A stretch of DNA of 64,000 nt from contig NZ_CP036349.1 of assembly GCF_007753265.1 (NCBI RefSeq), forward strand, positions 2,451,363-2,515,362, written 5' to 3'. Every line of letters starts with the position of its first letter. Within the stretch, counting starts at the first letter, position 1. Below the pieces are notes generated by a model. That model did not search any database, had not been told where the DNA came from, and worked only from the letters and a program-made list of their open reading frames with translations. Position numbers and translations under genes: made by a program. Of the stretch, positions 22,482-44,028 are shown piece by piece. Source of the stretch: Botrimarina mediterranea (lineage in GTDB: Bacteria; Planctomycetota; Planctomycetia; Pirellulales; Lacipirellulaceae).

Positions 22482-22488
22482 ACCCGCC

Positions 22489-23901
22489 ATGCTCCTGACC
22501 ATCTCTACAACGCACCAGCCGGCGGCCGATCTCGGTTACCTGCTGCACAAGCACCCGGACCGCTGTCAGTCGTTTGACCTCAGCTTCGGCGAGGCGCACG
22601 TTTTCTACCCGGAAGCGAGCGCGGATCGCTGTGCCGCGTGCTTGCTGCTGGACGTTGATCCGGTCGGGCTGGTGCGGGGCAAGGGCAACTGGAAGAGTGG
22701 GCCGCTGGACCAGTATGTCAACGACCGGCCCTACGTCGCGTCGTCGCTGATGAGCGTGGCGATCTCGCAGGTCTTCGGCTCGGCGTTGGCGGGGCGATCA
22801 AAGGAGCGTCCCGAATTGCTGGGGACGCCCATCCCGCTGACAGCTCGGATTGACGTGCTGCCCGTTCGTGGGGGTGTGGAGCTGCTGCAGCGGATGTTCG
22901 GGCCGCTTGGCTACGAGGTCACCGCCGCGCGGCATCCGCTCGACGAGAAGTTTCCCGAATGGGGAGAAAGCCCTTACTACTCGGTCACGCTTTCGCAGAC
23001 CACCACCGTCGCCCAGCTGCTTCAGCACCTCTACGTGCTGATCCCAGTCTTCGATGGCAAGAAGCACTATTACATCGGGCCCGATGAGGTCGAGAAGCTG
23101 CTCTCGAAGGGACAGTCATGGCTGGCGGACCATCCCGAGCGTGACCTCATTACCCAACGCTACCTGCCTAGGCGATATAGCCTCATCCGCCAAGCGTTGG
23201 CGCAGCTTGTTCCCGAAGAAGCGGTCGAGGAGGAAGCCCTTGAGCAAAAAGTTGAGACGAACCAACCGACACCGTCGCAAGAGCGCGAGTTGAGCTTGCA
23301 CGAACAGCGGCTCGGCGCCGTGCTAGCCGCGATCCGATCGTCGGGAGCCAAACGGGTCGTTGACCTGGGCTGCGGTGAAGGGAAGCTGCTCCGGGAGTTG
23401 CTCGCCGACAAGCAGTTTACGGAGATTGTCGGGATGGACGTGTCGGTGCGTTCGCTCGAGATCGCCCATCGGCGATTGAAGCTCGATCGGCTGCCCGAGC
23501 GGCAACGGGAGCGGATCCGGCTTATTCACGGAGCCCTAACCTATCGAGACCAGCGGCTCGCCAACTTCGACGCCGCGGCCCTTGTTGAGGTCATCGAGCA
23601 TCTCGACCCGGCGCGGCTGGCCGCGCTGGAGCGGGTCGTCTTCGAGCACGCGCGGCCACGGACCGTCGTGCTGACGACGCCCAACCGTGATTACAACGTC
23701 ATCTGGGAATCGCTCGCCGCAGGGGAGATGCGGCATAGCGACCACCGATTCGAGTGGACACGAGCGGAGTTTGAAGCCTGGGCCGGAGGTGTCGCGGAAC
23801 AGTTTGGATACGCCGTTCGGTATCTGCCGGTCGGTCCCGAGGAGGCAGGCGTTGGTACTCCTTCGCAGATGGCGGTGTTCGAAGTGCTGGGGGTGTCATG
23901 A
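22489..23901 (+). CDS. hen1: 3'-terminal RNA ribose 2'-O-methyltransferase Hen1
   Basis: A 470-residue bacterial Hen1. The N-terminal domain begins TTHQPAADLGYLLHKHPDR and FDLSFGEAHVFYPEAS, diagnostic of the family, and pairs with Pnkp. The C-terminal SAM methyltransferase has VVDLGCGEGKLLREL (SAM loop) and the metal site EVIEHLDP (Glu-x-x-Glu-His) with a further His in HSDHRFEWTR. It marks the 3' end at the break with 2'-O-methyl before ligation, so that repaired RNA resists re-cleavage by ribotoxins. ATG 22489 is chosen by homology; the longer frame lies inside the ATPase gene. It overlaps the next gene by ATGA. Confidence 0.95.
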   Translation: MLLTISTTHQPAADLGYLLHKHPDRCQSFDLSFGEAHVFYPEASADRCAACLLLDVDPVGLVRGKGNWKSGPLDQYVNDRPYVASSLMSVAISQVFGSALAGRSKERPELLGTPIPLTARIDVLPVRGGVELLQRMFGPLGYEVTAARHPLDEKFPEWGESPYYSVTLSQTTTVAQLLQHLYVLIPVFDGKKHYYIGPDEVEKLLSKGQSWLADHPERDLITQRYLPRRYSLIRQALAQLVPEEAVEEEALEQKVETNQPTPSQERELSLHEQRLGAVLAAIRSSGAKRVVDLGCGEGKLLRELLADKQFTEIVGMDVSVRSLEIAHRRLKLDRLPERQRERIRLIHGALTYRDQRLANFDAAALVEVIEHLDPARLAALERVVFEHARPRTVVLTTPNRDYNVIWESLAAGEMRHSDHRFEWTRAEFEAWAGGVAEQFGYAVRYLPVGPEEAGVGTPSQMAVFEVLGVS

Positions 23902-26030: not shown

Positions 26031-26977
26031 AGTCCCGCGTCCACAACAGCCCGAACCTCATCTACTCGGCGGGGACTCAAGTCGTCGTCCTTAAGTCGGT
26101 CCAGGGTTCGAACGGCCGAGTCGCCCACCCCGCCGGCGCCGTCGGCGTGATCGTGCGGTCGCCGCAGGACCGTCATCACTCCTACCGCGTTCGGTTCGTG
26201 GACGACTTCGAGGCGGCGTTACATCACGACAACCTGATGCTGCTGGCCGAGTACAAGCAAGGAGCCATCAACGACACCAACCAAGTCCTCTCGACCCACG
26301 GTCTCTTCGACCGGGTCATCTACCGCTGCGTGGTGGGGTCACGTGCCTTTGGACTTGGGACTGAAGAATCGGATACCGACCGCCGTGGGGTCTACCTTCC
26401 GTCAGCGGACCTCCACTGGTCGCTGTACGGCGTGCCTGAGCAGCTCGAAAACGAACGCACGGAAGAATGCTACTGGGAGCTGCAGAAGTTTCTCGTCATG
26501 GCCCTGAAGGGAAACCCAAACATTCTTGAATGTCTCTACACGCCGTTGATTGAGTTCGTGACGCCGCTTGGACAAGAACTTCTGGCGATGCGGGAGGCGT
26601 TCCTCTCTCGGCTGGTCTACCAGACGTACAACGGCTACGTCATGTCGCAATTCAAGCGGATGGAGGCCGATCTGCGTAATCAGGGCAAGGTGAAGCCCAA
26701 GCATGTGATGCATCTGATCCGGCTTCTCTTGTCGGGCATTCACGTGCTCCGTGAGGGGTTCGTCCCCGTCGACGTCGGCCAGCACCGGGAGCGGCTCTTC
26801 GCCATCAAGAATGAAGAGATGGCTTGGGACGACATCGAAGCGTGGCGGAAGCAGCTGCATGCCGAGTTCGATCGGGCGTTGGAGGAGACCAACTTGCCAG
26901 AGCGGCCGGACTACGAACGTGCGAACGAGTTTCTCGTGAAGGCACGACGGCTCGCCGTGGCGGAGAAACTGCCGTGA
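26027..26977 (+). CDS. RlaP-like Pol-beta superfamily nucleotidyltransferase with SH3-like N-terminus
   Basis: A 316-residue protein from ATG 26027 (overlapping the previous stop, ATGA). Residues 1-75 resemble an SH3/KOW-like barrel (GTQVVVLKSVQG; GVIVRSP; YRVRFVDDFEA). The catalytic domain has GSRAFGLGTEESDTDRRG (104-121), the GS...SDxD signature of Pol-beta nucleotidyltransferases of the YcgL/RlaP group, followed by an all-helical C-terminal half. RlaP proteins have been linked by genomic context to RNA ligases and RNA repair, where they could add nucleotides to ends. A second, diverged RlaP-like gene lies two genes downstream. Confidence 0.82.
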   Translation: MKSRVHNSPNLIYSAGTQVVVLKSVQGSNGRVAHPAGAVGVIVRSPQDRHHSYRVRFVDDFEAALHHDNLMLLAEYKQGAINDTNQVLSTHGLFDRVIYRCVVGSRAFGLGTEESDTDRRGVYLPSADLHWSLYGVPEQLENERTEECYWELQKFLVMALKGNPNILECLYTPLIEFVTPLGQELLAMREAFLSRLVYQTYNGYVMSQFKRMEADLRNQGKVKPKHVMHLIRLLLSGIHVLREGFVPVDVGQHRERLFAIKNEEMAWDDIEAWRKQLHAEFDRALEETNLPERPDYERANEFLVKARRLAVAEKLP

Positions 26978-27747
26978 CGACTAATGAAGTTGTGCCAGAC
27001 AGCAGCCGAGGGAAGTTAACGCGAGTTCTACCCGTCGTCGTAGGGCTGCTCGTCTTTGTTCTTCTTGGAGTTGTCGCCGCATCCATGATTGCGAGCGCTC
27101 GACACTCTGTTGATGAGACGCTGTGCCATTCGAACCTCGTTAAGCTACGGCATGCGCTGGTGGAGTACGCCTCTGTGCACGGCTCACTACCGCCAGCAGT
27201 CCTTCCAGGGCCTGATGGCAAGACGGCTCACAGCTGGAGAGTTTTGATACTTCCTTACCTCGATTCCTGGGGAATCGACGGCAGAGCCATCTATGAAGCC
27301 TACGATATGGCCGAGGAATGGAACGCTCCCGGCAATCGTCGACTTTTTAAGCTCGTTGCACAGAGCAGGTTCGCTTGTCCCTGCGGTCCTGAAGAAGACA
27401 CTACGCTGACGAGCTACGTCGTAATCGTAGGCGGCAACACGCTTTTTCCTCCGGGCGGCACGGTATCCGCCTCAAAGCTGCCGAACAATGTGGACCCGAT
27501 TCTGGTCATAGAAATATCCAGCTCGGATATCGAGTGGCCAGAGCCGAGGGACCTCTCGGTTAGCGAGCTATCCAAGTCTAGTCGGTTGAACTCGATAGCA
27601 TTGTTGAAGCCACACGGTGGGGTGATCCGTTACATCACGCTCAGTGGCAGGTTGGGCGTACTAGCCGGCGATATGAGTGTGGATGAAGTCAATCGGCTCG
27701 CTAGCATCGACGGTCAGGCTGCAAATGCTGACGAGGAACTGCCATGA
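26974..27747 (+). CDS. DUF1559-like membrane-anchored protein inside RNA-repair operon
   Basis: A 257-residue protein from a GTG that overlaps the previous stop (GTGA). One N-terminal transmembrane helix (about residues 16-38) is followed by a DUF1559-like ectodomain: ETLCHSNLVKLRHALVEYA, GSLPPAVLPGPDGKTAHSWR and VLILPYLDSWG, then FACPCGPEEDTTLTSY and a WPEPRDLS-type segment. The family is normally an envelope/pseudopilin protein, and the classic FTLVELL motif is absent here. It overlaps the next gene by ATGA. Finding it in the middle of a cytosolic RNA-repair operon is odd; it may have been captured, or it may tether the system to the membrane. Confidence 0.75.
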   Translation: MTTNEVVPDSSRGKLTRVLPVVVGLLVFVLLGVVAASMIASARHSVDETLCHSNLVKLRHALVEYASVHGSLPPAVLPGPDGKTAHSWRVLILPYLDSWGIDGRAIYEAYDMAEEWNAPGNRRLFKLVAQSRFACPCGPEEDTTLTSYVVIVGGNTLFPPGGTVSASKLPNNVDPILVIEISSSDIEWPEPRDLSVSELSKSSRLNSIALLKPHGGVIRYITLSGRLGVLAGDMSVDEVNRLASIDGQAANADEELP

Positions 27748-28511
27748 ACGCTCAAATCATCCCGCACGAACTGCTTCAGCGGCAGGTCGAAGCCCACCCG
27801 TACCCGCTCGTCTTCGCGACGATCAGCGGTGCTCACCTGTATGGCTTCCCATCCGCCGACTCCGACTTCGACCTCCGAGGCGTGCATCTACTGCCGCTCG
27901 ACCAGGTCGTCGGTCTTGAAGTGGGTGAAGAGACCGTCGAGAAGTCGGGGGTGAGGGAAGGCTTCGAGATGGACCTCGTGACCCACGACGCCAAGAAGTT
28001 CTTCACCCTGATGCTAAAGAAGAACGGCTATGTGCTTGAGCAGTTGCTCTCACCTCTGGTCGTCCATACGACACCCGAGCTTGAGGAACTGAAGGCGATT
28101 GCGAAGGACTGCATCACTCGCCATCACGCTCACCACTATCTTGGGTTCGCAGAGACCCAGTGGCGTCTGTTACTCAAGGAGAAGCCGCCTCGCGTCAAAC
28201 CGCTGCTGTACGTCTATCGGGTGCTGCTGACCGGCATCCACCTGATGCGTACCGGCGAGGTCGAAGCCAATCTTCTGAAGCTCAACGAGACGGCTCAGCT
28301 CCCCTACATCGTCGAGCTCGTGGAACGGAAGCTTGCTGGTCCTGAGAAGGGAAGACTCGACGAAGCTGACGTCGCCTTCCACGAGAGAGAGTACAGGCGA
28401 TTGGTCGCGGATTTGGAAGTCGCGATGGAAGAGTCAAGGCTGCCGGATCGACCAAGCAGCGAGCCGGCGCTCAATGACCTGCTCGTGCGATTGCGGGTCA
28501 AAAATAAGTGA
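27744..28511 (+). CDS. RlaP-like Pol-beta superfamily nucleotidyltransferase
   Basis: A 255-residue nucleotidyltransferase with SGAHLYGFPSADSDFDLRG (28-46), the GS-like loop and SDxD metal motif, then a helical C-terminal domain (KPLLYVYRVLLTGIHLMRTG parallels KHVMHLIRLLLSGIHVLREG in the upstream paralogue). It lacks the SH3-like N-terminus. The two are therefore diverged paralogues that may handle different ends or nucleotides. The small kinase gene begins 7 bases downstream. Biochemical activity is inferred from motif only. Confidence 0.83.
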   Translation: MNAQIIPHELLQRQVEAHPYPLVFATISGAHLYGFPSADSDFDLRGVHLLPLDQVVGLEVGEETVEKSGVREGFEMDLVTHDAKKFFTLMLKKNGYVLEQLLSPLVVHTTPELEELKAIAKDCITRHHAHHYLGFAETQWRLLLKEKPPRVKPLLYVYRVLLTGIHLMRTGEVEANLLKLNETAQLPYIVELVERKLAGPEKGRLDEADVAFHEREYRRLVADLEVAMEESRLPDRPSSEPALNDLLVRLRVKNK

Positions 28512-28518
28512 GGAAGGC

Positions 28519-28968
28519 ATGGAAACTGTCGTGCTCATCGGCTTACAAGCTTCGGGCAAGTCGTCCTTCTGCAGAGAATATCTGTTCGAATCGCACGTCC
28601 GAATCAACATGGACATGCTTCGGACTCGGTATCGAGAGAAGCTGCTCATTGCCGCCTGCCACGAGGCGAAACAGCCTTATGTCGTCGACAATACGAACCC
28701 GACGCGCGCTGAACGTGTCGGCTACATTCAGGCGGCTAAAGCAGCGGGCTTCCGCGTGGCTGGGTACTACTTCGCATCGAAGGTCGAAGATTGCAAGCTT
28801 CGGAACAGCCGTCGACCAGCAACGAAGATCGTGCCGCTCAAAGGGCTCCTGGGTACTTTCAGCAAGCTCCAACTGCCAGAGAAGGAGGAGGGATTCGATG
28901 AGCTGCACTACGTATCGATCGCAGAAGATGGGGGATTCGCTGTAAGCGTTTGGTCCAATGAAGTTTGA
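28519..28968 (+). CDS. Small P-loop polynucleotide kinase-like protein
   Basis: A 149-residue AAA_33/T4-Pnk-like kinase: METVVLIGLQASGKSSF holds the P-loop (8-15), NMDMLRTR is the following strand, and YVVDNTNPTRAERVGYI resembles the VDATNVQRESR segment of the Pnkp kinase domain encoded downstream. RRPATKIVPLKGL may be the lid. It could phosphorylate 5'-OH RNA ends. The ATG at 28519 follows a GAGGAAGG site. It overlaps the Thg1-like gene by 11 bases. This is the second 5'-kinase of the operon, so its substrate likely differs from that of Pnkp. Confidence 0.82.
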   Translation: METVVLIGLQASGKSSFCREYLFESHVRINMDMLRTRYREKLLIAACHEAKQPYVVDNTNPTRAERVGYIQAAKAAGFRVAGYYFASKVEDCKLRNSRRPATKIVPLKGLLGTFSKLQLPEKEEGFDELHYVSIAEDGGFAVSVWSNEV

Positions 28969-29731
28969 CGACCTCGACACCCGGATGCGTGTTTTCGAGA
29001 CCGGGCACGACCACTGTGTGCTTCCGGGCATCTACATTGTCGCACGTCTCGACGGAAGAGGCTTCACCCGGCTCACGAAAGAGGTCCACAAATTCGAAGC
29101 CCCGTTTGACGTGCGGTTCCGCGATTTGATGGTCCAGACGGTCCAACACCTGATGGACTGCGGATTCCAGATTGTCTACGGCTACACGGAGAGCGATGAG
29201 ATCTCATTGCTTTTGGACCTCGAAGCCGACGCGTTCAGCAGAAAGACTCGTAAACTCAATTCGGTTCTGGCAGGCGAAGCAAGTGCTAAGTTCTCACTGC
29301 TGCTGGGCGGTATCGCTTGCTTCGACTGCCGCCTCTCACAGTTGCCGAGAGCCATCGATGTCGTGGACTATTTCCGCTGGCGGAACGAAGACGCTCACCG
29401 CAATGCCCTCAATGCCCACTGCTATTGGCGACTCCGCAAGGAAGGTCAGGACGCGAACCAAGCGACAACAGCGTTGATGAAGTTGTCGGTTGCCGATAAG
29501 AACGAGTTGCTCTTCCAACGGGGGATCAATTTCAACGATCTGCCAGGCTGGCAGAAGCGGGGCATCGGTGTCGTGTGGCGGGAGTTCGAGAAGCAAGCCG
29601 TTAATCAGATGACGGGCGAGCCCGTGACAACGACTCGACGACGGCTAGAGACCATCTTGGAACTACCGATGCGAGACGATTACAGCGATTTCGTGTACGG
29701 GCTGCTGAGAGGCGCAGACCAACGTGCCTAG
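28958..29731 (+). CDS. Thg1-like 3'-5' RNA polymerase (tRNA-His guanylyltransferase family)
   Basis: A 257-residue member of the Thg1/TLP family. The two-metal catalytic motifs are ARLDGRGFTRLT (Asp32, Gly33) and GYTESDEISLLL (Asp80, Glu81), and SRKTRKLNSVLAGEASAKFS is a further family block. Members add nucleotides to 5' ends in the 3'-5' direction; bacterial TLPs repair 5'-truncated tRNAs using the 3' strand as template. In this operon it would refill lost 5' nucleotides before Pnkp ligation. It overlaps the kinase gene upstream by 11 bases and pnkp downstream by 8. Confidence 0.92.
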   Translation: MKFDDLDTRMRVFETGHDHCVLPGIYIVARLDGRGFTRLTKEVHKFEAPFDVRFRDLMVQTVQHLMDCGFQIVYGYTESDEISLLLDLEADAFSRKTRKLNSVLAGEASAKFSLLLGGIACFDCRLSQLPRAIDVVDYFRWRNEDAHRNALNAHCYWRLRKEGQDANQATTALMKLSVADKNELLFQRGINFNDLPGWQKRGIGVVWREFEKQAVNQMTGEPVTTTRRRLETILELPMRDDYSDFVYGLLRGADQRA

Positions 29732-32327
29732 TTTCTCCATCCCGAATTTGTCTCTGGTTGTCCTGATCGGCCCCAGTGGCTCCGGTAAGAGCACGTTCGC
29801 ACGCAAGCACTTCCTGCCTACGGAAGTGCTGTCGAGCGACTATTGCCGTGGCCTGGTGAGCGACGACGAGAACAATCAAGCGGCGACAAACGATGCCTTT
29901 GACGTGCTCCACTTCATCGCTGCCAAGCGACTGGGGGCAGGTCGGCTCACCGTCGTTGACGCCACCAATGTGCAGCGAGAATCACGTCAGCCCCTGGTCG
30001 CCCTTGCGAGGGTTTACCACACGCTTCCGGTCGCCATCGTCTTCAACTTGCCCGAGGACGTCTGCCAAGAACGCAACCGGGGACGATCCGACCGGGACTT
30101 CGGCCCCCACGTCATCCGCAACCAGCGTTCGCAGCTGCGTCGATCGCTCAAAGCGTTGAAGCGGGAGGGATTTCGGCACATCTTCGTCTTCGATTCCCCC
30201 GAGCAGGTCGAAGCGGCCGTCATTGAACGGACGCCTCTCTGGAACGACAAGCGATCCGAGCGGGGTCCCTTCGACTTCATTGGCGACGTTCACGGCTGCT
30301 GCGACGAGCTCGAGGAGTTGCTCGTTAGTCTTGGCTACGAACCGCAACCGCTTGCCGACCCCGGCCCAGGATGGACCGACTACTGCTTTGCGCACCCCGA
30401 GGGCCGTAAGGCGGCGTTCGTCGGTGATCTCGTGGATCGTGGGCCGCGGGTGCTCGATACGCTAAGCCTCGTGCGGAACATGATGGCGGCCGGCTCGGCG
30501 ATTTGCGTCCCGGGCAACCACGACGCCAAGCTGCTCCGCAAGCTCCGCGGCAAGAACGTGCAGCTCACGCACGGCCTCGCCGGGACGATGGAAGAGATCG
30601 AGGCGGTCGCCGCAGAAGAGCAAGACGCATTCCGCAATGAACTCTCGACGTTCCTCGACAGCCTAGTCAGCCACTACGTGCTCGACGACGGCAAGATCGT
30701 GGTCGCCCACGCCGGGATGAAGGAGTCGATGCAGGGCCGCGGCTCGGGCAAGGTTCGCGAGTTCGCCCTTTACGGCGAGACGACCGGTGAGACCGACGAG
30801 TTCGGCTTGCCTGTCCGCTACCCGTGGGCGAGCGAGTACCGTGGCGGGGCGATGGTCGTCTACGGTCACACGCCCGTACCGACGGCCGAGTGGCTCAACA
30901 AGACGATCAACATCGACACCGGCTGCGTCTTCGGAGGAGCCCTGACGGCGCTGCGCTATCCTGAGCTGGAAACGGTCTCGGTCAAAGCGAAGCGGACCTA
31001 CTGCGAGCCCTCGCGGCCATTCCTGGAAGACAATGCCAAATCGCCCGCGCAGTCGTCGCAGCAAGCAAACGACGACCTGCTCGACTTGGCCGATGTCACC
31101 GGCAAGCGGATCGTCTCGACCCGATTGCGCCCGAACATCACGATCCGCGAAGAGAACGGCGTCGCCGCCCTCGAGGTGATGAGCCGATTTGCCGCCGACC
31201 CGCGGTGGCTCGTTTACCTGCCGCCCACAATGTCGCCATCGGAAACCAGCACGAAGGAGGGCTACCTCGAATACCCCGAGGAGGCGCTGGGATACTTCCG
31301 CAGCCAAGGCGTGCCGACGGTCGTGTGCGAAGAGAAACACATGGGCTCACGAGCCGTGGTCGTGGTCTGCCGTGACGAAGAGGTTGCGGCCAAACGGTTC
31401 GGCGTTCAGGGCGAGGCCGGCGTCATCACCACTCGTACCGGGCGTCGCTTCTTCAACGACTTGGCCATGGAAGCGGCTCTGCTCGAACGAGTCCGAGCTG
31501 CCTTGTCGGCCGCGGGTTTTTGGGAAGAGCACCAGACCGAATGGGTCGTGCTCGACTGCGAGCTGATGCCTTGGTCCGCCAAGGCCAAAGAGCTGGTGAA
31601 GTCGCAGTACGCCGCCGTGGGCGCCGCCGCCAAAGCGGCGCTGCCGCCGGTGGTTGACGCCCTGCGAACGACCGCCAAACGGCTCAACGGCGAAGCGTCG
31701 GAGTTGCTCGAGGGGCTCGCGGAGAAGTTTGGCGGGCAGCGGCAAGCGGCCAGCCGTTTCGTCGACGCTTATCGCCATTACTGCTGGCCGGTCGAGTCGG
31801 TCGAGGACTACAGGCTGGCGCCCTTCCACCTCCTCGCGACCGAGGGCCGGGTCCACGTCCAGCAGAACCACGAGTGGCACATGCAGTCGCTCGCCAAGGT
31901 CTGCCGGCAAGACCCGCGAGTGCTACTCGCCACGCCCTACCGCGTGATCGACGTGACGGACCCCGAGCAGGTCAACCAGGCCGTGCGGTGGTGGACCGAG
32001 CTGACCGAGGCCGGCGGCGAAGGCATGGTCGTCAAACCGCTCGACTTCATCTCCCGCGGCAAGCGGGGCCTGCTCCAACCCGCCGTGAAGTGCCGCGGCC
32101 GCGAGTACCTGCGAATCATCTACGGCCCCGACTACACGAGCGGGGCCAACCTGACCCGCCTCCGCAGCCGTGGGCTTGGCGCTAAACGGTCCCTCGCCCT
32201 GCGCGAGTTCGCCCTGGGCATCGAAGCCCTCGAACGCTTAGTCCGCCGCGAGCCTTTACGACGGGTTCACGAGTGCGTCTTTGGGGTGCTCGCCTTAGAG
32301 AGCGAACCGGTGGACCCTCGGCTATAG
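29724..32327 (+). CDS. pnkp: Bacterial polynucleotide kinase-phosphatase-ligase Pnkp
   Basis: An 867-residue three-module RNA end-healing and sealing enzyme, nearly the length of Clostridium thermocellum Pnkp (870). The kinase has GPSGSGKST with Lys22-Ser23. The metallophosphoesterase (about 185-430) has GDVHGC, GDLVDRGP, GNHDAK and YGHTPV. The ligase-type adenylyltransferase (about 480-865) has EEKHMGSRAVVV (motif I lysine), WVVLDCELMPW, EGMVVKPLDF and QPAVKCRGREYLRI. It heals 5'-OH and 2',3'-cyclic phosphate ends and seals with Hen1. GTG 29724 is used, overlapping the Thg1 stop. It is the last gene of the operon. Confidence 0.95.
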   Translation: MPSFSIPNLSLVVLIGPSGSGKSTFARKHFLPTEVLSSDYCRGLVSDDENNQAATNDAFDVLHFIAAKRLGAGRLTVVDATNVQRESRQPLVALARVYHTLPVAIVFNLPEDVCQERNRGRSDRDFGPHVIRNQRSQLRRSLKALKREGFRHIFVFDSPEQVEAAVIERTPLWNDKRSERGPFDFIGDVHGCCDELEELLVSLGYEPQPLADPGPGWTDYCFAHPEGRKAAFVGDLVDRGPRVLDTLSLVRNMMAAGSAICVPGNHDAKLLRKLRGKNVQLTHGLAGTMEEIEAVAAEEQDAFRNELSTFLDSLVSHYVLDDGKIVVAHAGMKESMQGRGSGKVREFALYGETTGETDEFGLPVRYPWASEYRGGAMVVYGHTPVPTAEWLNKTINIDTGCVFGGALTALRYPELETVSVKAKRTYCEPSRPFLEDNAKSPAQSSQQANDDLLDLADVTGKRIVSTRLRPNITIREENGVAALEVMSRFAADPRWLVYLPPTMSPSETSTKEGYLEYPEEALGYFRSQGVPTVVCEEKHMGSRAVVVVCRDEEVAAKRFGVQGEAGVITTRTGRRFFNDLAMEAALLERVRAALSAAGFWEEHQTEWVVLDCELMPWSAKAKELVKSQYAAVGAAAKAALPPVVDALRTTAKRLNGEASELLEGLAEKFGGQRQAASRFVDAYRHYCWPVESVEDYRLAPFHLLATEGRVHVQQNHEWHMQSLAKVCRQDPRVLLATPYRVIDVTDPEQVNQAVRWWTELTEAGGEGMVVKPLDFISRGKRGLLQPAVKCRGREYLRIIYGPDYTSGANLTRLRSRGLGAKRSLALREFALGIEALERLVRREPLRRVHECVFGVLALESEPVDPRL

Positions 32328-33370: not shown

Positions 33371-33781
33371 CTAGCCGCCGACTAGCAAGGTCAGCTTAAC
33401 GAACGCCACTTGCGACCCCGGTCCGAGAATGAGCACCTCGTCGAGATCTTCGACCTGGTGGTCGTTTACCAGGATCAAAAAGCCGTTCGCCTGGAAACCA
33501 CCCAGCGCCTTCTCGTATTGATCCTTCCAGTCAATCTGACGACGCCCTTTGAATCGAAATTCGGCTCTCGCACCATTCAAAGTGCGCTCGGTGTCGTTTG
33601 GTTGCACCAAGCCGCGGAAGACTTCGGCGTCACGCGTGCGATTGAAGTCTTGCACTTCCTGGTACACCCGTTCTCGGATGAGGTCGCGGACCGTGATTCG
33701 TTCGCTCGGAAACACGAGCGGAATCTCGTTGTAGGCCTCTCCTACAGCGGTCTCGTCACGAACCGTCAATTCGATAGCCAT
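33371..33781 (-). CDS. MoaD/ThiS-like beta-grasp (ubiquitin-like) protein with C-terminal Gly-Gly
   Basis: A 136-residue protein from the ATG at 33781, which has AAGGGG upstream. The last 37 residues (GFLILVNDHQVEDLDEVLIL, then GPGSQVAFVKLTLLVGG, stop) match the end of MoaD/ThiS: a strand with ILVN, an LD..L loop, a strand with VAF, and a free terminal Gly-Gly. The N-terminus (MAIELTVRDE, then ITVRDLIRERV) fits strand 1 and the tV-dLl helix of that fold. An insertion of about 45 residues (QDFNRTRDAEVF...) separates helix and strand 3. It follows the DUF4132 gene by 35 bases. Gly-Gly ends are adenylated or conjugated in known relatives, but no E1 gene lies beside it. The fold assignment is inference from sequence pattern. 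Confidence 0.6.
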   Translation of the reverse strand: MAIELTVRDETAVGEAYNEIPLVFPSERITVRDLIRERVYQEVQDFNRTRDAEVFRGLVQPNDTERTLNGARAEFRFKGRRQIDWKDQYEKALGGFQANGFLILVNDHQVEDLDEVLILGPGSQVAFVKLTLLVGG

Positions 33782-33816: not shown

Positions 33817-36800
33817 TTAACGATTGATTTGTCGGAGAATCGTCGTGTCTTGGATATTCTTGTCGGCCGCCAGCATCAACGCCTTACTCAGGATAATCGA
33901 TAGCGTCCTGTCTCCCTCGAACGGCAAGTAGACCTCTTCTTCTTTTGCTCGGCTCCGGGAATCCGGGACGATGCAGAGGTACTCGTCGTTCGGCTCCATC
34001 AAGATGTTCCCCGAACCGAGGTGGATCTTGTAGGTACGGAGGTCGCCTTGGACGACAAGGAAACGATCAGTGAAGGAACACCGGCTTGCGATCTTGAGGC
34101 GAGGAACCAGGCGTTCCAGCACCTCCTTCCTAGTGGCGGCAGTCGCGGACAGGTCGCCGAACGAGTAGGACGTCCAGTAGTTCTGGTATCGCCCATCGGG
34201 ACCCCCATCGTTCCAGTTCGGATCGTTGCCAACAGACGCCACGCCAACGAAGAGGTCAACATCGCGCATTACCTCCGAGAACACCAGCGGAGGAATCTGG
34301 TCGAGCGGCAGGGGCTCGTTGACGCCTTGTTCGCCGGCGTCGGCGGCGGCTGTCGTGTAGCCGCCGCCGCCCGCGTGGGCCCAATTCTCGGCGGCCCCGT
34401 CCCGATAGAAACGGACTTGATCCGTTGCCAGGTAGAGGTAGCTCCCCGACTCGTTCGTGTCCGTCTCGTACTCTTCGCCGATCCCTTCCACCCAGAACTC
34501 CGCTCGCAAGCCCCAACCTGGCAACCGCTTGGTCGGCGGCGCGTAGCTGTCATCCACCATCAGCCGCAATTGGTTCTTCCAACCACGGGCGCTGCACAGA
34601 GCATTGAACTGGTGCTGCCGAAGGACGTGCGCCGCGAATCGGTTAGAATACGTGCGGGTGTTCTCCTCGGCGGCCGTCAACAGGTAAACCTCGCGGTGCG
34701 CCTGTTTAAACGGCTGCGTAATCCGCAGTTCTTCCAGACGTCGCCGCCAAGCAACCACTTCCTCGACCGGCCGCCCTACCGGATGCCACAGGGTGATCTC
34801 GGCCGTGGCGCCGTGGCCAACCACCGAGCCGTCGAGGTCGGTCGCGACGCCTTCGATGAAACTCACCGGCTCGCCATCGACACACCAGATCAGACGCCCG
34901 GCAATCGTCCCTACCAGGGGGTGTTCGAGGTACCTTTCTCGCCACGCCGAGATCGGCCACGTCCGCTGGGCGAGGAACATCGAATCGATCCGGTCTCTTT
35001 GAGCCGGTAGGATCGCCTTGATGTCCTTAAGGGACTGCCGCAAGTCCTTCAACTCGTCCGCGTGCTCCTTACTCACCTTCGCTGGCACGGACTTCAATGG
35101 TTTCCCATGGCGGTCGCGCCACGCCAGACACGCGTCGGCACCGGTGACCTCAATCTCGGCTTCATACTCTCCGAATTCTTCAATAAGGCGTCCCACCTCC
35201 GTCAGGCCGTAGGACGGGACGCCCATCTCCTCGATCTCGTCCCGTGGCAGACCGAGGGACGCGGCGGTCTTTGTGAACGCTTTCTCGATCTCCTTCTGGG
35301 CGGTCCCGAACTTGACCCTCACTTTCAGTACGGCGAGTTGACCAACGGCGTCGATGGTTCCCATCTCGGACAACGCATAGACGCCGGCGTTCCCCACCTT
35401 GACGGCCCTCGGCCCGACGCCGGGGACCTTCTTGTAGGCCGAGAGCGTTACCTCGGAAATCAACCGCGTCAGTCGCTCGCGGTCGCCGAGGGTTGGCATA
35501 AGCCACAACAGTCCGCGGAGAGCTAGGGCGTTCTCGTCCTGCATCGTATCCGCAGCCCCGCGGGCGTCGCCCGCGTAGTAGCCGAACTGACTCACCGTCC
35601 GACCCCGCGCCACCTCGGGAAGCCATCTCGACAGGTGCTCCAAGAGCCGCGTTTCTCCCACCAAGGCGACCGCCTCGGACGCGCTCTTCAGCCACTTACT
35701 CGATGGCTTCGAAGCCGTCGCTGTCAGCAGGTGCGAAAAGAAGGAAACCCACCGTTTCTGTTCACGCAGCGACCACCGCGAAAAATCTTGATTGACGGCG
35801 TCCGACCACGCCTCTCCGGGCGCTAAGCAGAACGCAGCGCCATCGCCAACTAGGTCCGTCACGCGTCGCACATGGTCCGAGACGCTTCCGAGGGCGGGCC
35901 CAGCGACAAGCGTCATTCGAAAGCGATGCAGTGCGAACCGCTCGCCTTCAGTCAGCGCCTCTTCCTCGGCGTAACGCTCTACCAACTCGATCAGCTCGCC
36001 GAGGGTCTGATCGCCCACCGGTCGCGACTCGGGCCTTCTCGTTGACAGGTACAGCAAGGCGTCGAATGCCTCACCACGTGTCCAGGGAATACGCAGCCTT
36101 CGGACAATGCCGATCATCGCGTTGGCGGCATAGCGGGCCTGCCACTCGGCAGGATTTCCCAGATCACCTTCGGGCTCGAGCAAGGTCTCCATCTGCCTCT
36201 CGGCAGCCGCCAGGAAGAGTGAGGCGGCTCGGTCATCGGGAGGGTGCGAGAGCTGCTTGCCGTGCTTCAGCTTCTGCGGATTGGGGCTGTGGTAATCACC
36301 GGTTCCAGTAACTTCTTCTAAGACGCCGGTCAGGAGGCGGTGCTCGTCCGCCAGCGGCGAGTCGCTCCGCAAGGCAAATGCGTCGGGGCCGGTCGGTGAC
36401 GTCTCGCACGGGAGGTCTGCATGAAGGACGCCAAGATGCTGCTTGAGGCGAGTGAGGACCGCTTCGGTCCCAACGGGAGCGGGCCGCGGCGTCGGCCGCC
36501 ACTCGGCCATGTTCGGCTCGCTTTCTTCGTCGTCCGCTGCGGAAGCAGCCATCTGCTCCACGACGGTTGCGTAGCGCTTCGTGTCTTTGTCGTAGACCCC
36601 GCGCAACTGGCTCGCGAAGCCCTGCAAGGCGCTGATGAACTCAGCGTCGAGCTCCGTCTCCTCGGCGAACCGCTGCAAGGCGCGGACAATGTTGCCAATC
36701 GGGTACCAACGCGAGTTCAGCTGGTTGCTTTCGGCGCACCACTGCAATGCCAGCAGTAGGTCAGCCCTTTCGAAAGGGAGCTTGCGTCGAGTCAGCGTCT

Positions 36801-37149
36801 TCACGACCGTCGCGGCGGCAATGCGTTTCCCCCAAACCTCTTCCCATCCTGGCAGGTGGTGCGCGTTGATTCGCGCCAGTTCATTCTCCCCTTGGCTACG
36901 AACCCTTTCCGCCATGCGGTCCCAATGACGCACTTGTTGGACGGCGGCGAGCACAAACTTCCGCGCTGCCTCGGGGCTTGCGCCTAAAAGCGACCTCCCG
37001 GCTGCAATGCTCTTCAAGTCGAGGTCTTGGTAGTAGCGCTGACGGGTGGCGTTCACCTGCTCGATGAATGCCGCGATCAGGGCCTGTTCATCGGCCAGAT
37101 CGTCCCCAGCGTCCGCCACAAACGGTTCGATCCTGGGCGTCTTGCTCAT
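33817..37149 (-). CDS. Large DUF4132 (MolR-like) domain protein
   Basis: A 1110-residue cytosolic protein. Residues about 500-1105 carry the DUF4132 pattern, including VKVGNAGVYALSEMGTIDAVGQLAVL, ITLWHPVGRPVEEVVAWRRRL and the hallmark ITQPFKQAHREVYLLTAAE near residue 810, with RFAAHVLRQHQFNALCSARGW after it. The first 450 residues are helical and unassigned, with an acidic linker (DDEESEPN). DUF4132 occurs in MolR and in several predicted ATP-dependent conflict systems; its activity is unknown. The gene overlaps the helicase gene upstream by ATGA (37146-37149), so expression is locked to it. Confidence 0.85.
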   Translation of the reverse strand: MSKTPRIEPFVADAGDDLADEQALIAAFIEQVNATRQRYYQDLDLKSIAAGRSLLGASPEAARKFVLAAVQQVRHWDRMAERVRSQGENELARINAHHLPGWEEVWGKRIAAATVVKTLTRRKLPFERADLLLALQWCAESNQLNSRWYPIGNIVRALQRFAEETELDAEFISALQGFASQLRGVYDKDTKRYATVVEQMAASAADDEESEPNMAEWRPTPRPAPVGTEAVLTRLKQHLGVLHADLPCETSPTGPDAFALRSDSPLADEHRLLTGVLEEVTGTGDYHSPNPQKLKHGKQLSHPPDDRAASLFLAAAERQMETLLEPEGDLGNPAEWQARYAANAMIGIVRRLRIPWTRGEAFDALLYLSTRRPESRPVGDQTLGELIELVERYAEEEALTEGERFALHRFRMTLVAGPALGSVSDHVRRVTDLVGDGAAFCLAPGEAWSDAVNQDFSRWSLREQKRWVSFFSHLLTATASKPSSKWLKSASEAVALVGETRLLEHLSRWLPEVARGRTVSQFGYYAGDARGAADTMQDENALALRGLLWLMPTLGDRERLTRLISEVTLSAYKKVPGVGPRAVKVGNAGVYALSEMGTIDAVGQLAVLKVRVKFGTAQKEIEKAFTKTAASLGLPRDEIEEMGVPSYGLTEVGRLIEEFGEYEAEIEVTGADACLAWRDRHGKPLKSVPAKVSKEHADELKDLRQSLKDIKAILPAQRDRIDSMFLAQRTWPISAWRERYLEHPLVGTIAGRLIWCVDGEPVSFIEGVATDLDGSVVGHGATAEITLWHPVGRPVEEVVAWRRRLEELRITQPFKQAHREVYLLTAAEENTRTYSNRFAAHVLRQHQFNALCSARGWKNQLRLMVDDSYAPPTKRLPGWGLRAEFWVEGIGEEYETDTNESGSYLYLATDQVRFYRDGAAENWAHAGGGGYTTAAADAGEQGVNEPLPLDQIPPLVFSEVMRDVDLFVGVASVGNDPNWNDGGPDGRYQNYWTSYSFGDLSATAATRKEVLERLVPRLKIASRCSFTDRFLVVQGDLRTYKIHLGSGNILMEPNDEYLCIVPDSRSRAKEEEVYLPFEGDRTLSIILSKALMLAADKNIQDTTILRQINR

Positions 37150-40100: not shown

Positions 40101-42296
40101 CGCGAGCGTGGCGTCACGTCGATTCTTGCCGCCTGCGTCGGCGCCGCCTGCCAACGCAAACCGTTCGTAGGTCTGCTTGAGACCCATCACGAACGCTTTC
40201 TTGTCCGCCTGGGAGTCGTGGATCAAGCAACAGAGGTCGTCGAGGCCAACCTGCTTCAGCCGTGCGTAGACGACATCGATCGCCGCCCGCTTTTCGCACA
40301 CGAACAAAACGCGCTTGCCCCGGGCGACGAAGTCGGCGATGAGGTTGGTGATCGTCTGCGACTTACCCGTCCCCGGCGGGCCTTGGATGATGTAGCTCTT
40401 GCCGCCGGCTGCGTCCGCGATCGCCATGGCCTGCGTTGGGTCGCAAGGGACCACGTCGAAGCGGTCGCCCAGCGGCCTGGGATCGGTTGGTTTGCTGCTC
40501 CGTGGGCGCGGCACGAGCGAGAAGACCGCTTCGAACGCGGGGTTCTCGTCGTCGGTCGCCAGCAGCGCCTCGTAATCCCGGACCAGCGACATCCGGCGAT
40601 ACCTGAAGTTCGCTAGGGTCACGCTGCACAGGTCGAAGGTCCAGTCGTAGGGACTGGCCTCCGCGCCCGACTGGAGGACATAAGTCTGGCGTTCCTTCTC
40701 GGCCGATGGCGTCGAGTCGGGGACGGCGAAAGTCCTCGGGCGAGGCGATTCCTCGACAATGGTCCGCAGGTGGGTCGCGGGAGGCTTGACCATCGCACTG
40801 AAGAGTTTCACGCCCAGCGGGTGGTAATTCGCCGCGTCGTAGCTGTAGTCGAGGTCGAGGAATTTGCTGACGCCCCGGCCAGCGAGCCGGGCCTTCTTGC
40901 GGTACTGGTCGAGCTTGCGTTTCGCTCTCTCGTGGATCAGCTGGATGCGGGGGCGGTCGACTTTGCCGAGCGAGACGGCGGCCTGCGAAGCCTCAACGCG
41001 TCGCTTAAGGTCTTCGTAAAAATCGTCAAGACGGGCTTCGGCGAGGTCGATCGTTTCCGGCAGATCGATGTCGTAGAGCTGCTTAAACTGATGCCGGACG
41101 ACGGGATTGACCTCGGCTTCGGTCCCGATCGGCTCCAGCGAGTAGGTGTCGCGGATTCCCTTCTTCTTTTTCAGCTCGACGGGCACGAGAACCAGCGGCG
41201 ATTCGTACTGCTCGACCGGCTTCTCCTTCAGGTTCGCCCAGTGGAGGAAGCAGACGACCAATCGCAGCTGCACGAACCCGAACTCGGCCCGGTCGCGGCG
41301 CGCCTCGGCGATCAGCCGCTCGAGCTGGCTCGGCAGGTACAACACCTCCGAGAAGTTGAGGTACTTGTTCAGGGAGACCGTCGCCCCCTTGCTGACGTCG
41401 CGTTCGAATTGGCTGCTCCACGTCAGCACTTGATCGGGTCGAATACTCTCGACATTGAACGCCAACGGCACCGAAGCGTGCGTGAGGTTCACGCTCTGCA
41501 TCGTGGGCTGGAAGTGCAACAACCGATTGCGACGCGACAGCTCGAACAGCCGCTCGCGGAGCTTGGTCAGCACCACGGTCCGCTTATCCTGCTTGGGCCG
41601 CTCGGCGAACCCGTCGGTCGCCGCTAAGTCGTAGTCGAAGTCGATTTCTTGATCGCGGTAGTTTTCGAGCGCCCCAACGAGCGACGCCAAGTCCGAGGGC
41701 CGCCGGCGACGATCGAGTTCCGTCATCCGGACGATAACGCGAGCCACCACGGGGTGCAGGCCACTCGCCAAGGCGAAGAGGTTCTTGCGGCTAGCAACAA
41801 ACCGCTCCAGCGACTCTTTCTCCGCCAGGTCGAGTCCACACGCCAGACTCGCCAGCAGCATGCCGAGACTGAAGACGTCCGTTAGCGGGTCGTGCCTGCC
41901 GAGCCGGTGCTCCCACGCCTCGTAGGCGGGCAAGTAGACAGGCCGGGTTACAGGGCCTTCGCCATCGTCAACCGCCAGATCTAGGACCTGGGTGACGCCG
42001 TCATCAACGCTCGTCGAGACGCGCTGCTCCGCGACCACTTCAAACACCGCCCGCCCAGACCGCTCGACGCGCTCGAGGCCCTCGCCGGCCGTAGGGCGTC
42101 GCCGCTTCGACTCCTCAAACCAAAGCCGCACGCCGTCGACACGGAGATCGTTGACCCCGCAGAGGGGCGCCACCCACCCCCCCGCGTGGGTTTCCGCGAC
42201 CTCTCGAGCCAGCGGCAAGAAGCTGGCGAGCGCGTCTTCGGTCGAGAAGCCGCCTGCGTCGAGGCGTTCGTTTAGGAACTGAGTAAACTCGCTCAC
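37146..42296 (-). CDS. Giant pseudokinase-DUF4011-SF1 helicase-endonuclease, Hhe-like
   Basis: A 1716-residue multidomain protein. Residues about 10-225 look like a protein-kinase C-lobe with a broken catalytic loop (HAGGWVAPLCGVNDLRVDG in place of HRDxxxxN; later PLTDVFSLGMLL). DUF4011 follows at about 245-430 (ELSRRNRLLHF). An SF1 (COG1112/Upf1-like) helicase starts with GPPGTGKSQT (about 640), has DEAS near 1268, and ends with GGEKRLNVAFSRAKRHM. The last 100 residues are a Vsr/MTES_1575-type nuclease fold (FRCDLAV, LGVLIDSDAY), with Leu where Glu is usual. DUF4011-helicase-Vsr proteins are recalled as the single-gene Hhe defence system. The gene overlaps both neighbours by four bases. Confidence 0.88.
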   Translation of the reverse strand: MSEFTQFLNERLDAGGFSTEDALASFLPLAREVAETHAGGWVAPLCGVNDLRVDGVRLWFEESKRRRPTAGEGLERVERSGRAVFEVVAEQRVSTSVDDGVTQVLDLAVDDGEGPVTRPVYLPAYEAWEHRLGRHDPLTDVFSLGMLLASLACGLDLAEKESLERFVASRKNLFALASGLHPVVARVIVRMTELDRRRRPSDLASLVGALENYRDQEIDFDYDLAATDGFAERPKQDKRTVVLTKLRERLFELSRRNRLLHFQPTMQSVNLTHASVPLAFNVESIRPDQVLTWSSQFERDVSKGATVSLNKYLNFSEVLYLPSQLERLIAEARRDRAEFGFVQLRLVVCFLHWANLKEKPVEQYESPLVLVPVELKKKKGIRDTYSLEPIGTEAEVNPVVRHQFKQLYDIDLPETIDLAEARLDDFYEDLKRRVEASQAAVSLGKVDRPRIQLIHERAKRKLDQYRKKARLAGRGVSKFLDLDYSYDAANYHPLGVKLFSAMVKPPATHLRTIVEESPRPRTFAVPDSTPSAEKERQTYVLQSGAEASPYDWTFDLCSVTLANFRYRRMSLVRDYEALLATDDENPAFEAVFSLVPRPRSSKPTDPRPLGDRFDVVPCDPTQAMAIADAAGGKSYIIQGPPGTGKSQTITNLIADFVARGKRVLFVCEKRAAIDVVYARLKQVGLDDLCCLIHDSQADKKAFVMGLKQTYERFALAGGADAGGKNRRDATLAAVHDNLAPLERFDRVMQSTPDRIGLTVRRLIDRCVEMRGLAPPLDLLAAERLPTYAEWSQNSAVIGRFVNNLRYVGGGAVLATHPLRLLSGKLADEERPLDRLLQAVAAAEPCLERAEAELQRCGVPREQWEGVRQAGLLTDYSVRLTPLSEVGAQCVMDPVHERSLAYQEVAKRLAQAKAALAAKESANANWTDRLSTDETDVALDQAKTLEKALLPWLRPGWWRLRGVLKKCYDFKAHKVRPTWSRVLTQLKEEHDARQVYDRSLAETGDALGVAPGRAADLSATVQQVAEWLLRQPPWLQKLHAAVLRNPRGGEIIARVNKAAAPFASALAELDGVAEGLTEMTLSELRHSLRFAAENAGVVPDFLKALRDLEAVPPSMRGVLRELPHPVAEIEAAVAERSLADALRLDREAERFNAAALRGHASEIESHFDRWLGENAREVCSRVQRRFLDNLAISETSAANLTSEQKEFKKVYTRGRRELEHEFGKQMRYKPIRELVSGESGEVVNDLKPVWLMSPLSVSDTLPLDGGRFDVVIFDEASQVTLEEAAPALCRAPQTIVVGDEMQLPPTDFFSAKQSAGEDDETLVESDGELVRYDLDSGSFLSHVAKNLPSTMLGWHYRSRSESLISFSNWAFYDGRLLTVPEESLPGTQRTPIVASTATDGRAGAGEILRRPVSFHSVPYATYDKSRNRGEAEYIAEMVRGLIGDQSPTIGIVAFSEAQQDEIEQALNRLAEEDNEFAKRLEAEYEREEGGQYVGLLVKNLENIQGDERDLIILSVCYGRPLAGKMRMNFGPINKSGGEKRLNVAFSRAKRHMALVSSIASAEVTNDYNDGANCLKNYLRYAEAASVGDVETAKRILGGLSRWRDDSSSESAGDGAVASRLAEELRERGYRVDLSVGQSHFRCDLAVACEGDEGYRLGVLIDSDAYYEQSDLIERDMMRPRLLRAFGWRISQVLAKDYFEKPGEVVAELVRELTEARK

Positions 42297-43498
42297 TTCG
42301 ACGCCTCCGTTCTAGCCACGGCCACAATTTTGTCGCGGTTCTTGGCGAGCTCTTCAAATTGCTTCTTTCGCAGCCGGAACTCTTTCATCGCGACTTCACC
42401 GAACCGGTCGGCGAGCCCGAGCGATTCCGCCACCGACAGCGCGTACGCGAGGGCCGCCTCCTCGAGGTCGCTGTCAGCCGATGCGAGATCCATCAGGACG
42501 TAGCAGAAGTAATCACGCACCGTGCTATCGCAATCCGCCACCACATCGTTGTCGAATTGCCCGGCAGCCGTGGCCGCCGGCTCGTAGTCGTCGAAGAAGA
42601 GGCGGGCGTGAGCAAGCAGCAGGTCGGTGCGGGCCCATTTCTCGATGAAGAAGGCGTCGAGCAGCGATCTGGTTTGCCCCGCCAGTCGATGCTGGGCCGT
42701 GAAGTCGAGTCGTCCCAGTGGCGGCGAACCCTGGATCAACTGGGCGATTTTGGCGTCGGCGGCAGCGGGGTCCTGCCTCCAGAGATCGAGCACTCTCGCC
42801 CGGATGTACTGCTCCGGATGCGTCTGTCCCTCCGACGCCCCCGGCGATCTTCTCAGCACCTCCTCCGCCTGTTTCAGGTATCCCCTGGCGTCGACCGAGT
42901 CGAGCCCGGTGGCGACCTTCACGAGCATGGAGATGACGGTGTCGGTGTCGCCCTGGACGGCTCTCGCACCCGTGCGGTCGCAATAGACCTCCTGGTAGAG
43001 GTCGAAGAGCCGCATCGTTTCATAGTGAGGCGTGTCGGCCGACCGGTCGTTGGTCATCGCCGTGAGGACCTGCGAAGCCACCAGCAGGTCACCGTTCTCA
43101 ACTTCGTAGAGCAGCACGTGCCCCAGCTCGTGCGCGAACAGCGCCTGCAGCTCCTGCTCGTTGAGCCGAGTCGACACGGGCCCCGCCAGCACGATGTGGG
43201 CCTCCTCCGGTAGATAGGCGATGGAGGCGTTTAGTCCCTCGGAATTCTGCGCTTGATAAAGCGTTACTTCATGCTCGACGCCAAGAGCTTCGGCCGCCGA
43301 CTCTGCGATCCGGTAGAGGTCCGGATGGTTGTCTCGGCCGATGCGGTAGGTGCGCTTTAGCAGGTCGAACCGGACTGCCTCGGCATGCTCCTTTTGGACG
43401 CGATTGGACGCGAACCAGTCCCAAACTTGCCTCTCTTCGCGCCGCAGGTACGCGAGGACGTCGGCGTGATATGGCAGGATCGAGGCGTCGAACGACAT
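42293..43498 (-). CDS. Cytosolic M48-type zinc metallopeptidase
   Basis: A 401-residue protein from the ATG at 43498. HELGH (His123, Glu124, His127) and the third-ligand segment EVYCDRTGA (Glu170) are the M48 pattern. There are no membrane helices, unlike HtpX or Oma1, so it should be soluble. The C-terminal half is helical and resembles tandem helical repeats (TDLLLAHARLFFDDYEPAATAA; FCYVLMDLASADSDLEEAALAYAL). It is the first gene of the four-gene operon and overlaps the helicase gene by ATGA. A longer frame back to 43573 exists, but the added residues look non-native. Peptidases in conflict operons often process a toxin, a sensor or a ubiquitin-like partner; none of this is shown here. Confidence 0.85.
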   Translation of the reverse strand: MSFDASILPYHADVLAYLRREERQVWDWFASNRVQKEHAEAVRFDLLKRTYRIGRDNHPDLYRIAESAAEALGVEHEVTLYQAQNSEGLNASIAYLPEEAHIVLAGPVSTRLNEQELQALFAHELGHVLLYEVENGDLLVASQVLTAMTNDRSADTPHYETMRLFDLYQEVYCDRTGARAVQGDTDTVISMLVKVATGLDSVDARGYLKQAEEVLRRSPGASEGQTHPEQYIRARVLDLWRQDPAAADAKIAQLIQGSPPLGRLDFTAQHRLAGQTRSLLDAFFIEKWARTDLLLAHARLFFDDYEPAATAAGQFDNDVVADCDSTVRDYFCYVLMDLASADSDLEEAALAYALSVAESLGLADRFGEVAMKEFRLRKKQFEELAKNRDKIVAVARTEASK

Positions 43499-44028
43499 AA
43501 GAGCGTTGCTTCCCGTGGCGATTGGAGCCCATAGGATAGCCAGAAAACCGGGCTTGCGACTATTTGTCTTCAAAGCCGCGTTAGTCGGCCCTTCATCAAT
43601 CCCCGCGAGTCTGTCGCGGCCGTTGTCCTTGTGCCCTGCGGACCCGGAGACCGAGACGTCGCCACTCCGTTGAAGCCCGGCGTCCGTAGTACGGCGACCT
43701 CGCCGCGACGGGCGCCTGTGAGCCGCTGAAACCGCGACATGTCCATGGCAATCTCTGTCGTGGCAGGCAGCGATTTATCGTAGGTCTCATCATCGATTCA
43801 TGTCGATTCATGTCTCGCCGCGCGTCTCGCGGGTTTGCGTTCTACCTTTCTTAAGACCACCCACGGCGGCCGCTTGTAGGTGAGTCGTTGGCGTACAAGA
43901 TTCTCAATTTACTTCCCACTTGAACGAGACGCCGGTGACAGCCGTCTGTCAACCGTGCAGGTGAAACGCGCTCCGCAAGTACCCGCTACAATGACTATGT
44001 TTTCGACGCTTCATTCCGAGGATGAGCT
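43499..44028. other. Divergent intergenic region with a 10-bp tandem repeat
   Basis: About 530 bases between the M48 gene and the peptidase/dehydrogenase fusion gene. TCGATTCATG occurs twice in direct tandem at 43793-43812. A TACAAT (43987-43992) lies about 37 bases before the ATG at 44029, a possible -10 box for that gene, without a convincing -35. No gene recognised. Confidence 0.5.

Follow-up and report, generated by a model that had tools for sequence, protein, structure and literature searches.

The terminal Gly-Gly of a small ubiquitin-like protein, here called UBL, and a single cysteine (C1059) in the DUF4132-DUF7737 protein encoded beside it are conserved together across bacterial loci and, in nearly every case, lost together. 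UBL is paired with this partner in most loci, is predicted to adopt a beta-grasp fold and carries a conserved tail, and the tail is co-conserved with C1059. Judged from sequence comparison, the co-loss of Gly-Gly and C1059 points to an undescribed ubiquitin-like reaction of UBL and its DUF4132 partner. We put the probability that the UBL tail and C1059 react at roughly 55%; from this we infer thioester chemistry, an activator and targets, as set out below. The C1059 link is a new result that goes beyond the first-pass annotation of this DNA.

The window, meaning the whole 64,000-nucleotide stretch of Botrimarina mediterranea DNA that was analysed, carries UBL as the last gene of an operon that runs M48 peptidase, DUF4011 helicase-nuclease, DUF4132-DUF7737, UBL. 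The first two joints of the operon are 4-base overlaps, and 35 bases separate the end of the DUF4132 gene from the start of UBL. The features discussed here are as follows.

33371..33781, minus strand: UBL, ubiquitin/MoaD-like beta-grasp protein (by predicted fold), 136 aa, ending ...FVKLTLLVGG
33374..33379, minus strand: terminal Gly-Gly codons of UBL (GGC GGC), directly before the stop codon TAG (33373-33371)
33817..37149, minus strand: DUF4132-DUF7737 protein, 1110 aa, the recurring partner; residues ~440-643 modelled as helical repeats
34579..35106, minus strand: DUF4132 domain (residues 682-857), PF13569, E 1.6e-52
33826..34137, minus strand: DUF7737 domain (residues 1005-1108), PF24879, E 5.6e-42
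33973..33975, minus strand: C1059 codon (motif YLCIV), co-conserved with the UBL Gly-Gly
34021..34023, minus strand: H1043 codon (motif YKIHLGSGN), His in 56/58 loci, possible helper of C1059
37146..42296, minus strand: DUF4011/SF1 helicase with MTES_1575 nuclease domain, operon member, 4-base overlap
42293..43573, minus strand: M48-family metallopeptidase, first gene of the operon, 4-base overlap

The first-pass annotation had placed the UBL gene correctly and had read its terminus, exactly LLVGG, as it stands; the coding strand is the minus strand. It is present in a single copy in the genome, and its product has no match in Pfam, NCBIfam or PADLOC. The helicase-nuclease of the operon is close to PADLOC PDC-S37 and to the NCBIfam anti-phage models ProA and Hhe, scoring below the NCBIfam cut-offs. 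Convergent with the operon is an RNA-repair cluster (21135-32327, plus strand) encoding AAA, Hen1, a 710-aa protein of unknown type, two RlaP nucleotidyltransferases, an AAA_33 kinase, Thg1 and a Pnkp kinase-phosphatase-ligase.

UBL is a real gene, with 18 homologues that are 38-64% identical in the first alignment. Of 392 Planctomycetota genomes searched by profile, 20 have a UBL match, as do 23 of 400 genomes of Chloroflexota, the phylum of Ktedonobacter, and a plasmid collection added loci from Nonomuraea, four Deinococcus, Bacteroides finegoldii and Novosphingobium. The total came to 78 UBL loci (72 plus 6 added later), some of them close kin. Dropped before counting were L009 (from the same genome as L025), short loci superseded by longer stretches, and L103 and L104 (weak matches, E 8.8e-4 and 4.4e-3). 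The near-identical L065, L156 and L158 were retained, as were, through the piece bearing the end, L095 (UBL with an internal stop), L102 (30 UBL residues at a contig edge) and the loci with a broken DUF4132 gene (L051, L092, L102, L160 and L163). L014 (a 35-residue remnant) and L099 (a fragment) are counted among the 78 and stand outside the 64-locus table described below, as does L100, whose DUF4132 is cut before its end (Cys present).

A DUF4132 gene lies beside UBL on the same strand, or is fused to it, in 65 of the 78 loci, which supports this protein, one of two named in the first-pass annotation for a pull-down, as the likely partner. UBL comes first in 57 of these loci and last in 7, including the window, and one is a fusion; gene order was scored in 70 loci, the other 8 having no adjacent DUF4132. 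The 13 loci without DUF4132 comprise two in which a contig edge falls inside the DUF4132 start (L012 and L013), one on a 3.3-kb contig (L018), the fragments L014 and L099, L062 (none on 12 kb), and L166-L172, which have no DUF4132 in stretches of 14-15 kb. The intact pair, with both Gly-Gly and Cys, was seen in five bacterial phyla.

The M48 peptidase, the other protein named there, did not hold up as a partner of UBL. Neither it nor the helicase has a BLAST match at E 1e-3 in any of 20 homologous stretches (L009-L028, with L009 and L025 drawn from a single genome and only short sequences for L012, L013 and L018). The neighbours of DUF4132 do include a dissimilar M48 peptidase in L022 and, in L058, one of the M10 family. 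No other gene family recurs beside the pair in more than 4 of 20 loci, save the antisense shadow of UBL itself (6 loci), and four of 10 adjoining genes scanned have a Pfam match (M48, FAD-binding, epimerase and M10), the other six having none. These observations bear on the idea that M48, helicase, DUF4132 and UBL form a system for defence against phage, with UBL marking the proteins that the peptidase is to cut. The resemblance of the helicase to defence models, the tight overlap of the operon genes and the presence of metallopeptidases among two of the 10 scanned neighbours would fit such a system, but the 20 homologous stretches lack the M48 and helicase genes by BLAST, DUF4132 and UBL match no PADLOC or NCBIfam system model, and no phage record matches the C-terminal part of DUF4132 at E 1e-5, making it very improbable. 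Searches of viral contigs, using patterns that detect close relatives only, found no relative of UBL.

The AlphaFold2 model of UBL (pLDDT 78.9) has the order beta-beta-alpha-(insert)-alpha-beta-beta-beta and a floppy tail, with residues 133-136 scoring under 50. The insertion noted in the first-pass annotation is real and amounts to 36 residues between helix 31-48 and helix 85-97, of which residues 51-80 are poorly modelled (block means 68, 55 and 50). The best Foldseek rows were ISG15, LUBAC Ubl domains, MOCS2A and SUMO, with a best E of 0.013 and none significant alone; lower rows include staphylococcal superantigen-like proteins. VIA-align superposed the model on MOCS2A (5mpo_A) with Z 7.8 over 78 residues at 2.8 A, and on ubiquitin and ISG15 with Z 7.0-7.4 over 71-78 residues at 1.9-2.9 A. 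A Z below 8 may mean only a common arrangement; the rows listed were nearly all ubiquitin-fold domains, as judged by their titles, and some ubiquitin alignments extend to ubiquitin residue 76. UBL is thus predicted, from the model, to be a beta-grasp protein with MOCS2A/MoaD and ubiquitin among its top matches, in agreement with the earlier proposal. At the sequence level, the MoaD/ThiS model PF02597 did not match the window UBL at E 1 and matched one of 19 homologues at E 0.022, hhalign of UBL against the MoaD and ThiS of its own genome gave ~1% (a weak test, with single sequences), and a PDB sequence search had no match for UBL or DUF7737.

That no E1 adjoins UBL had been noticed from the window, and the observation extends to all 24 UBL genomes: no ThiF/E1 is linked, there being none within 0.29 Mb of UBL on the same contig (several contigs being short). 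ThiF proteins are present elsewhere in all 24, and 16 of the 24 have a Prok-JAB match, none of them less than 0.9 Mb from UBL on the same contig. The genome of the window encodes a MoeB-like ThiF, a ThiS (...TLVGGG) and a MoaD (...MVSGG), the last with a neighbour that we take to be MoaE-like. Since this genome encodes ThiF proteins, a housekeeping E1 is on hand, and UBL may use it.

A rival reading is a sulfur carrier, in which a MoaD/ThiS-type UBL is thiocarboxylated by housekeeping MoeB/ThiF, C1059 accepts sulfur (as persulfide) or acyl, and DUF4132 makes a thio-product. MOCS2A/MoaD is among the best fold matches, the UBL tail is like those of ThiS and MoaD in its own genome, ThiF is found in every UBL genome, and a role of DUF4132 in molybdopterin biosynthesis is suggested as possible in the accessible text of PMC8533742. 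UBL shares with MoaD/MOCS2A and ThiS the beta-grasp fold and the exposed C-terminal Gly-Gly, but differs in the 36 residues between its modelled helices, in the lack of a linked E1 and in its partner, which is DUF4132-DUF7737 rather than MoaE or ThiG. It also has no significant sequence link to ThiS or MoaD (partly a matter of single-sequence comparisons, a weak test), the host already has both of these proteins, and DdrO depletion leaves moeA and moeB unchanged in the accessible part of PMC8533742. We regard a sulfur carrier as possible, if unlikely.

All 19 rows of the first alignment (A1) end in Gly-Gly. Among the other genes called in the window and the 19 first stretches, 303 are 100 aa or longer, and 3 of these end that way. 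Across the 78 loci the tail is exactly Gly-Gly in 60, is followed by 1-2 residues in 4 (GGA, GGSA, GGAP and GGCR) and lacks Gly-Gly in 14. The earlier expectation that homologues would keep the motif therefore holds for 64 of 78 and fails for the remainder, where its absence is non-random. Five of the 14 have a separate DUF4132 and all five of these lack C1059; the others are seven loci without DUF4132 in the stretch, one fusion (Cys present) and one fragment. The seven UBL relatives without a nearby DUF4132, all tail-less, are L166-L171 (one lineage) and L172, and the beta-grasp of L166-L171 seems to have a tail-free second life. L166-L171 end in FIRLYQR or FMRLYQR, and L166 adjoins a protein kinase and a helicase-exonuclease. 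The 1-2 residues beyond Gly-Gly in L096, L100, L161 and L165 (A, SA, AP and CR) are reminiscent of ubiquitin and SUMO precursors.

A terminal Gly-Gly could in principle arise by chance or as a by-product of a Shine-Dalgarno sequence for the next gene, given that 57 of the 65 paired loci are UBL-first, an order that places GGNGGN near the DUF4132 start. This is hardly credible. In seven loci, the window among them, UBL comes last, so that a Shine-Dalgarno role for DUF4132 is impossible, and Gly-Gly is retained in 6 of these 7; GGCGGC, a poor ribosome site, is used in six exact-Gly-Gly loci; and the background frequency is low, as given above. The glycine codons vary synonymously, with 14 of the 16 possible codon pairs among 59 exact-Gly-Gly loci. 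The codon variation and the UBL-last loci indicate that selection acts on the protein, and a Shine-Dalgarno origin was rejected.

The partner scores 178.5 bits for DUF4132 and 142.4 bits for DUF7737 in Pfam, against a curated cut-off of 27. A model of residues 425-1110 starts with helical, HEAT-like repeats; a fold search of the DUF4132 part returned helical-repeat chains, with a best Z of 11.2, which is weak for repeats, and gave no fold for the remainder, which it barely covered. A PDB sequence search with the DUF4132 part gave eight weak matches, the best (E 1.5e-6) being a "circular tendon repeat protein" aligned over the helical repeats. The Cys region of DUF7737 is modelled at low confidence (block means 44-76). 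Residues invariant in the first 31 sequences include H789, K815, Q816, R819, E820, E828, R837, E959, R962 and D965, and the larger set has single exceptions at those columns, such as H789Y in L066 and K815R in L102. C1059 is present in 54 of 58 loci, against 40 of 58 for the runner-up among the Cys columns of the window protein. DUF7737 is absent from all four scanned DUF4132 proteins of other type (E. coli YehI and L070-L072, of which L070 and L071 are 5-kb contigs), which have no UBL in reach. The DUF7737 region and Cys occur without an adjoining UBL in L063, L064, L067, L180 and L181; the notion that such orphans share a UBL encoded elsewhere was dropped, as the genomes had been picked for holding UBL. 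L164 (3589-7143, minus strand) encodes a natural UBL-DUF4132-DUF7737 protein of 1185 aa with LIGDK at the junction and Cys present, a candidate fusion or a sequence error.

The cysteine tracks the tail closely. In a first set of 58 loci with both UBL and the C-terminal part of DUF4132, C1059 was present in 53 of 53 Gly-Gly loci, in none of four with degraded tails (LAGA twice, LSG, and the L098 tail without Gly-Gly), and in the fusion L164. In the final table of 64 loci, all 58 with Gly-Gly have the Cys (three of them carrying 1-2 residues past Gly-Gly), and of those without Gly-Gly one has it (L164) and five do not, giving a Fisher p of 8e-7 that ignores relatedness. Among 30 columns conserved at 95% or more, C1059 alone is lost in all five degraded-tail loci, where it is replaced by F, F, F, P and A. 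On the tree there are 4 inferred Cys changes and 5 Gly-Gly changes, and every Cys change pairs with a Gly-Gly change. A sign test on the paired changes gives p 0.125, being unable to reach 0.05 because the independent losses are too few. Random placement by branch length never yielded full pairing in 60,000 draws and gave three or more of the four pairings in 93 of them, a result that is weakened by correction for the 30 columns. A single origin of the losses in L059, L060 and L061 is weakly rejected (AU p 0.041), suggesting three to four co-loss events. L059-L061 retain the other conserved residues where aligned, except for one Leu-to-Phe in L061, so their losses cannot be put down to general decay. 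The branch leading to L098 is long and decaying, and L177 carries four additional changes, near the Cys.

Cases retrieved after the link was spotted agree with it. The four Deinococcus loci and Novosphingobium have both Gly-Gly and Cys, Bacteroides has the tail LSGRLW and Cys replaced by Ala, and in Acetobacter no UBL was found and the Cys is Phe. The degraded-tail clade gained no new members in a further 16 and 1 genomes. Counter-cases are the fusion L164 (LIGDK, no free Gly-Gly), which has the Cys, L062 (VAGG), which has no DUF4132 on 12 kb, and the five DUF7737 proteins named above that have the Cys but no adjoining UBL.

The joint loss could also reflect a UBL that acts as a non-covalent subunit, its Gly-Gly tail docking in a C1059-lined groove of DUF4132-DUF7737, with tail and Cys lost together as a result of the groove closing. 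UBL still adjoins DUF4132 in the five degraded-tail loci, and so seems functional without the tail; one natural fusion lacks Gly-Gly; and the Deinococcus radiodurans homologue DR_A0165 is reported to co-precipitate proteins whether its tag is N- or C-terminal (PMC9650054, accessible text). A docking groove does not sit easily with a Cys at one position in all 58 Gly-Gly loci that gives way to F, F, F, P or A in five others, or with the retention of an exact two-residue Gly-Gly terminus across phyla, and we consider it unlikely.

The reading we prefer, a reaction between the UBL tail and C1059, can be laid out as a two-part ubiquitin-like system made up of UBL and DUF4132-DUF7737. UBL, with its beta-grasp core and flexible ...L[VAI]GG tail, would be synthesised with Gly-Gly already exposed. 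A housekeeping ThiF/MoeB-type E1 would most likely activate the C-terminal glycine, and is proposed because no dedicated E1 is linked. C1059 of DUF7737 would then take over or process the activated glycine, probably through a thioester in the manner of an E2 or E3, perhaps with the assistance of H1043, and the final transfer may be to a target or to DUF4132-DUF7737 itself. By analogy with divergent Deinococcus relatives, the system may act in stress response. If the Cys does carry UBL, bacteria would have a Ubl system that works through a new type of enzyme and lacks a dedicated E1.

A bolder and quite unlikely version would let DUF4132-DUF7737 both activate and conjugate its own Ubl, as a complete enzyme unrelated to ThiF. 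Here ATP binding and adenylation of the tail would fall to near-invariant polar residues in the DUF4132 region (H789, K815, R819, E820, E828, R837, E959, R962 and D965), and C1059 would carry the tail. If true, ubiquitin-like activation would have a second chemistry, of independent evolutionary origin.

The closest known counterpart is the pair DR_A0165 (SEP068184)-DR_A0166 of D. radiodurans, which is homologous, belongs to the other main branch of the tree and has an LTALAGG tail beside a DUF4132-DUF7737 protein with the Cys. Its DUF4132 protein differs from that of the window in having a long DUF5724 N-terminus. The thioredoxin gene trxC lies directly upstream of this UBL (L173, 3489-3917) and is presumably the DR_A0164/Trx1 of PMC9650054, whose product and UBL are reported to bind. 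In its accessible text, PMC9650054 describes DR_A0165 as a predicted MoaD-like, cytoplasmic protein found only in Deinococcus that binds thioredoxin Trx1, co-precipitates 157 proteins with all four of its tag forms, and when deleted leads to higher survival under oxidative stress. The drA0165-drA0166 genes are reported to be DdrO-controlled, and DRA0166 to be up after mitomycin C only with IrrE (PMC8533742, accessible text). The RDRM motif is disputed between the available texts, with none according to PMC9650054 and one at -83 according to PMC8533742. The accessible parts of both papers make no mention of Gly-Gly, of a reaction with the DUF4132 protein or of relatives in other phyla, and a search of mainly open-access journal articles found no prior description of a UBL-DUF4132 link. 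Two domains annotated without function, DUF4132 and DUF7737, are now tied to a ubiquitin-like protein, and the terminal Gly and C1059 are two named residues whose shared role is directly testable. D. radiodurans suits such tests, as the available texts report that DRA0166 is induced by DNA damage and that a DR_A0165 knockout exists (PMC8533742, PMC9650054).

CBASS offers a parallel. The accessible text of PMC10097602 reports that operons encoding Cap2 and Cap3 are the only ones in which the C-terminal Gly or Ala of the CBASS cGAS is conserved, and that Cap2 forms a thioester with the cGAS C-terminus. UBL-DUF4132 follows the same evolutionary logic, with a tail that is co-conserved with the Cys of its partner. 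In contrast to CBASS, which has Cap2 (with E1 and E2 domains) and the isopeptidase Cap3 in the operon, the UBL locus has neither linked, and its modifier is a small beta-grasp protein, unlike cGAS. As a terminal Ala is tolerated in CBASS, LAGA tails alone are no proof of a loss of function; the case for such a loss in the LAGA loci arises because the Cys is lost too.

A YukD-type Ubl-ThiF-JAB-FHA locus offers another comparison, as it encodes a bacterial Ubl with Gly-Gly, like UBL. Unlike UBL, this locus (L107) comes with a dedicated E1 and JAB; the Gly-Gly of its Ubl is internal, 12 residues short of the end, and the locus is unlinked, ~0.95 Mb off. It lies in the genome of the window, near 1.53 Mb (L107 5976-10113), where it encodes the YukD-type Ubl, a zinc-ribbon/DUF4190 protein, a ThiF E1, a JAB protein and an FHA protein, and it is a candidate second Ubl system of this genome.
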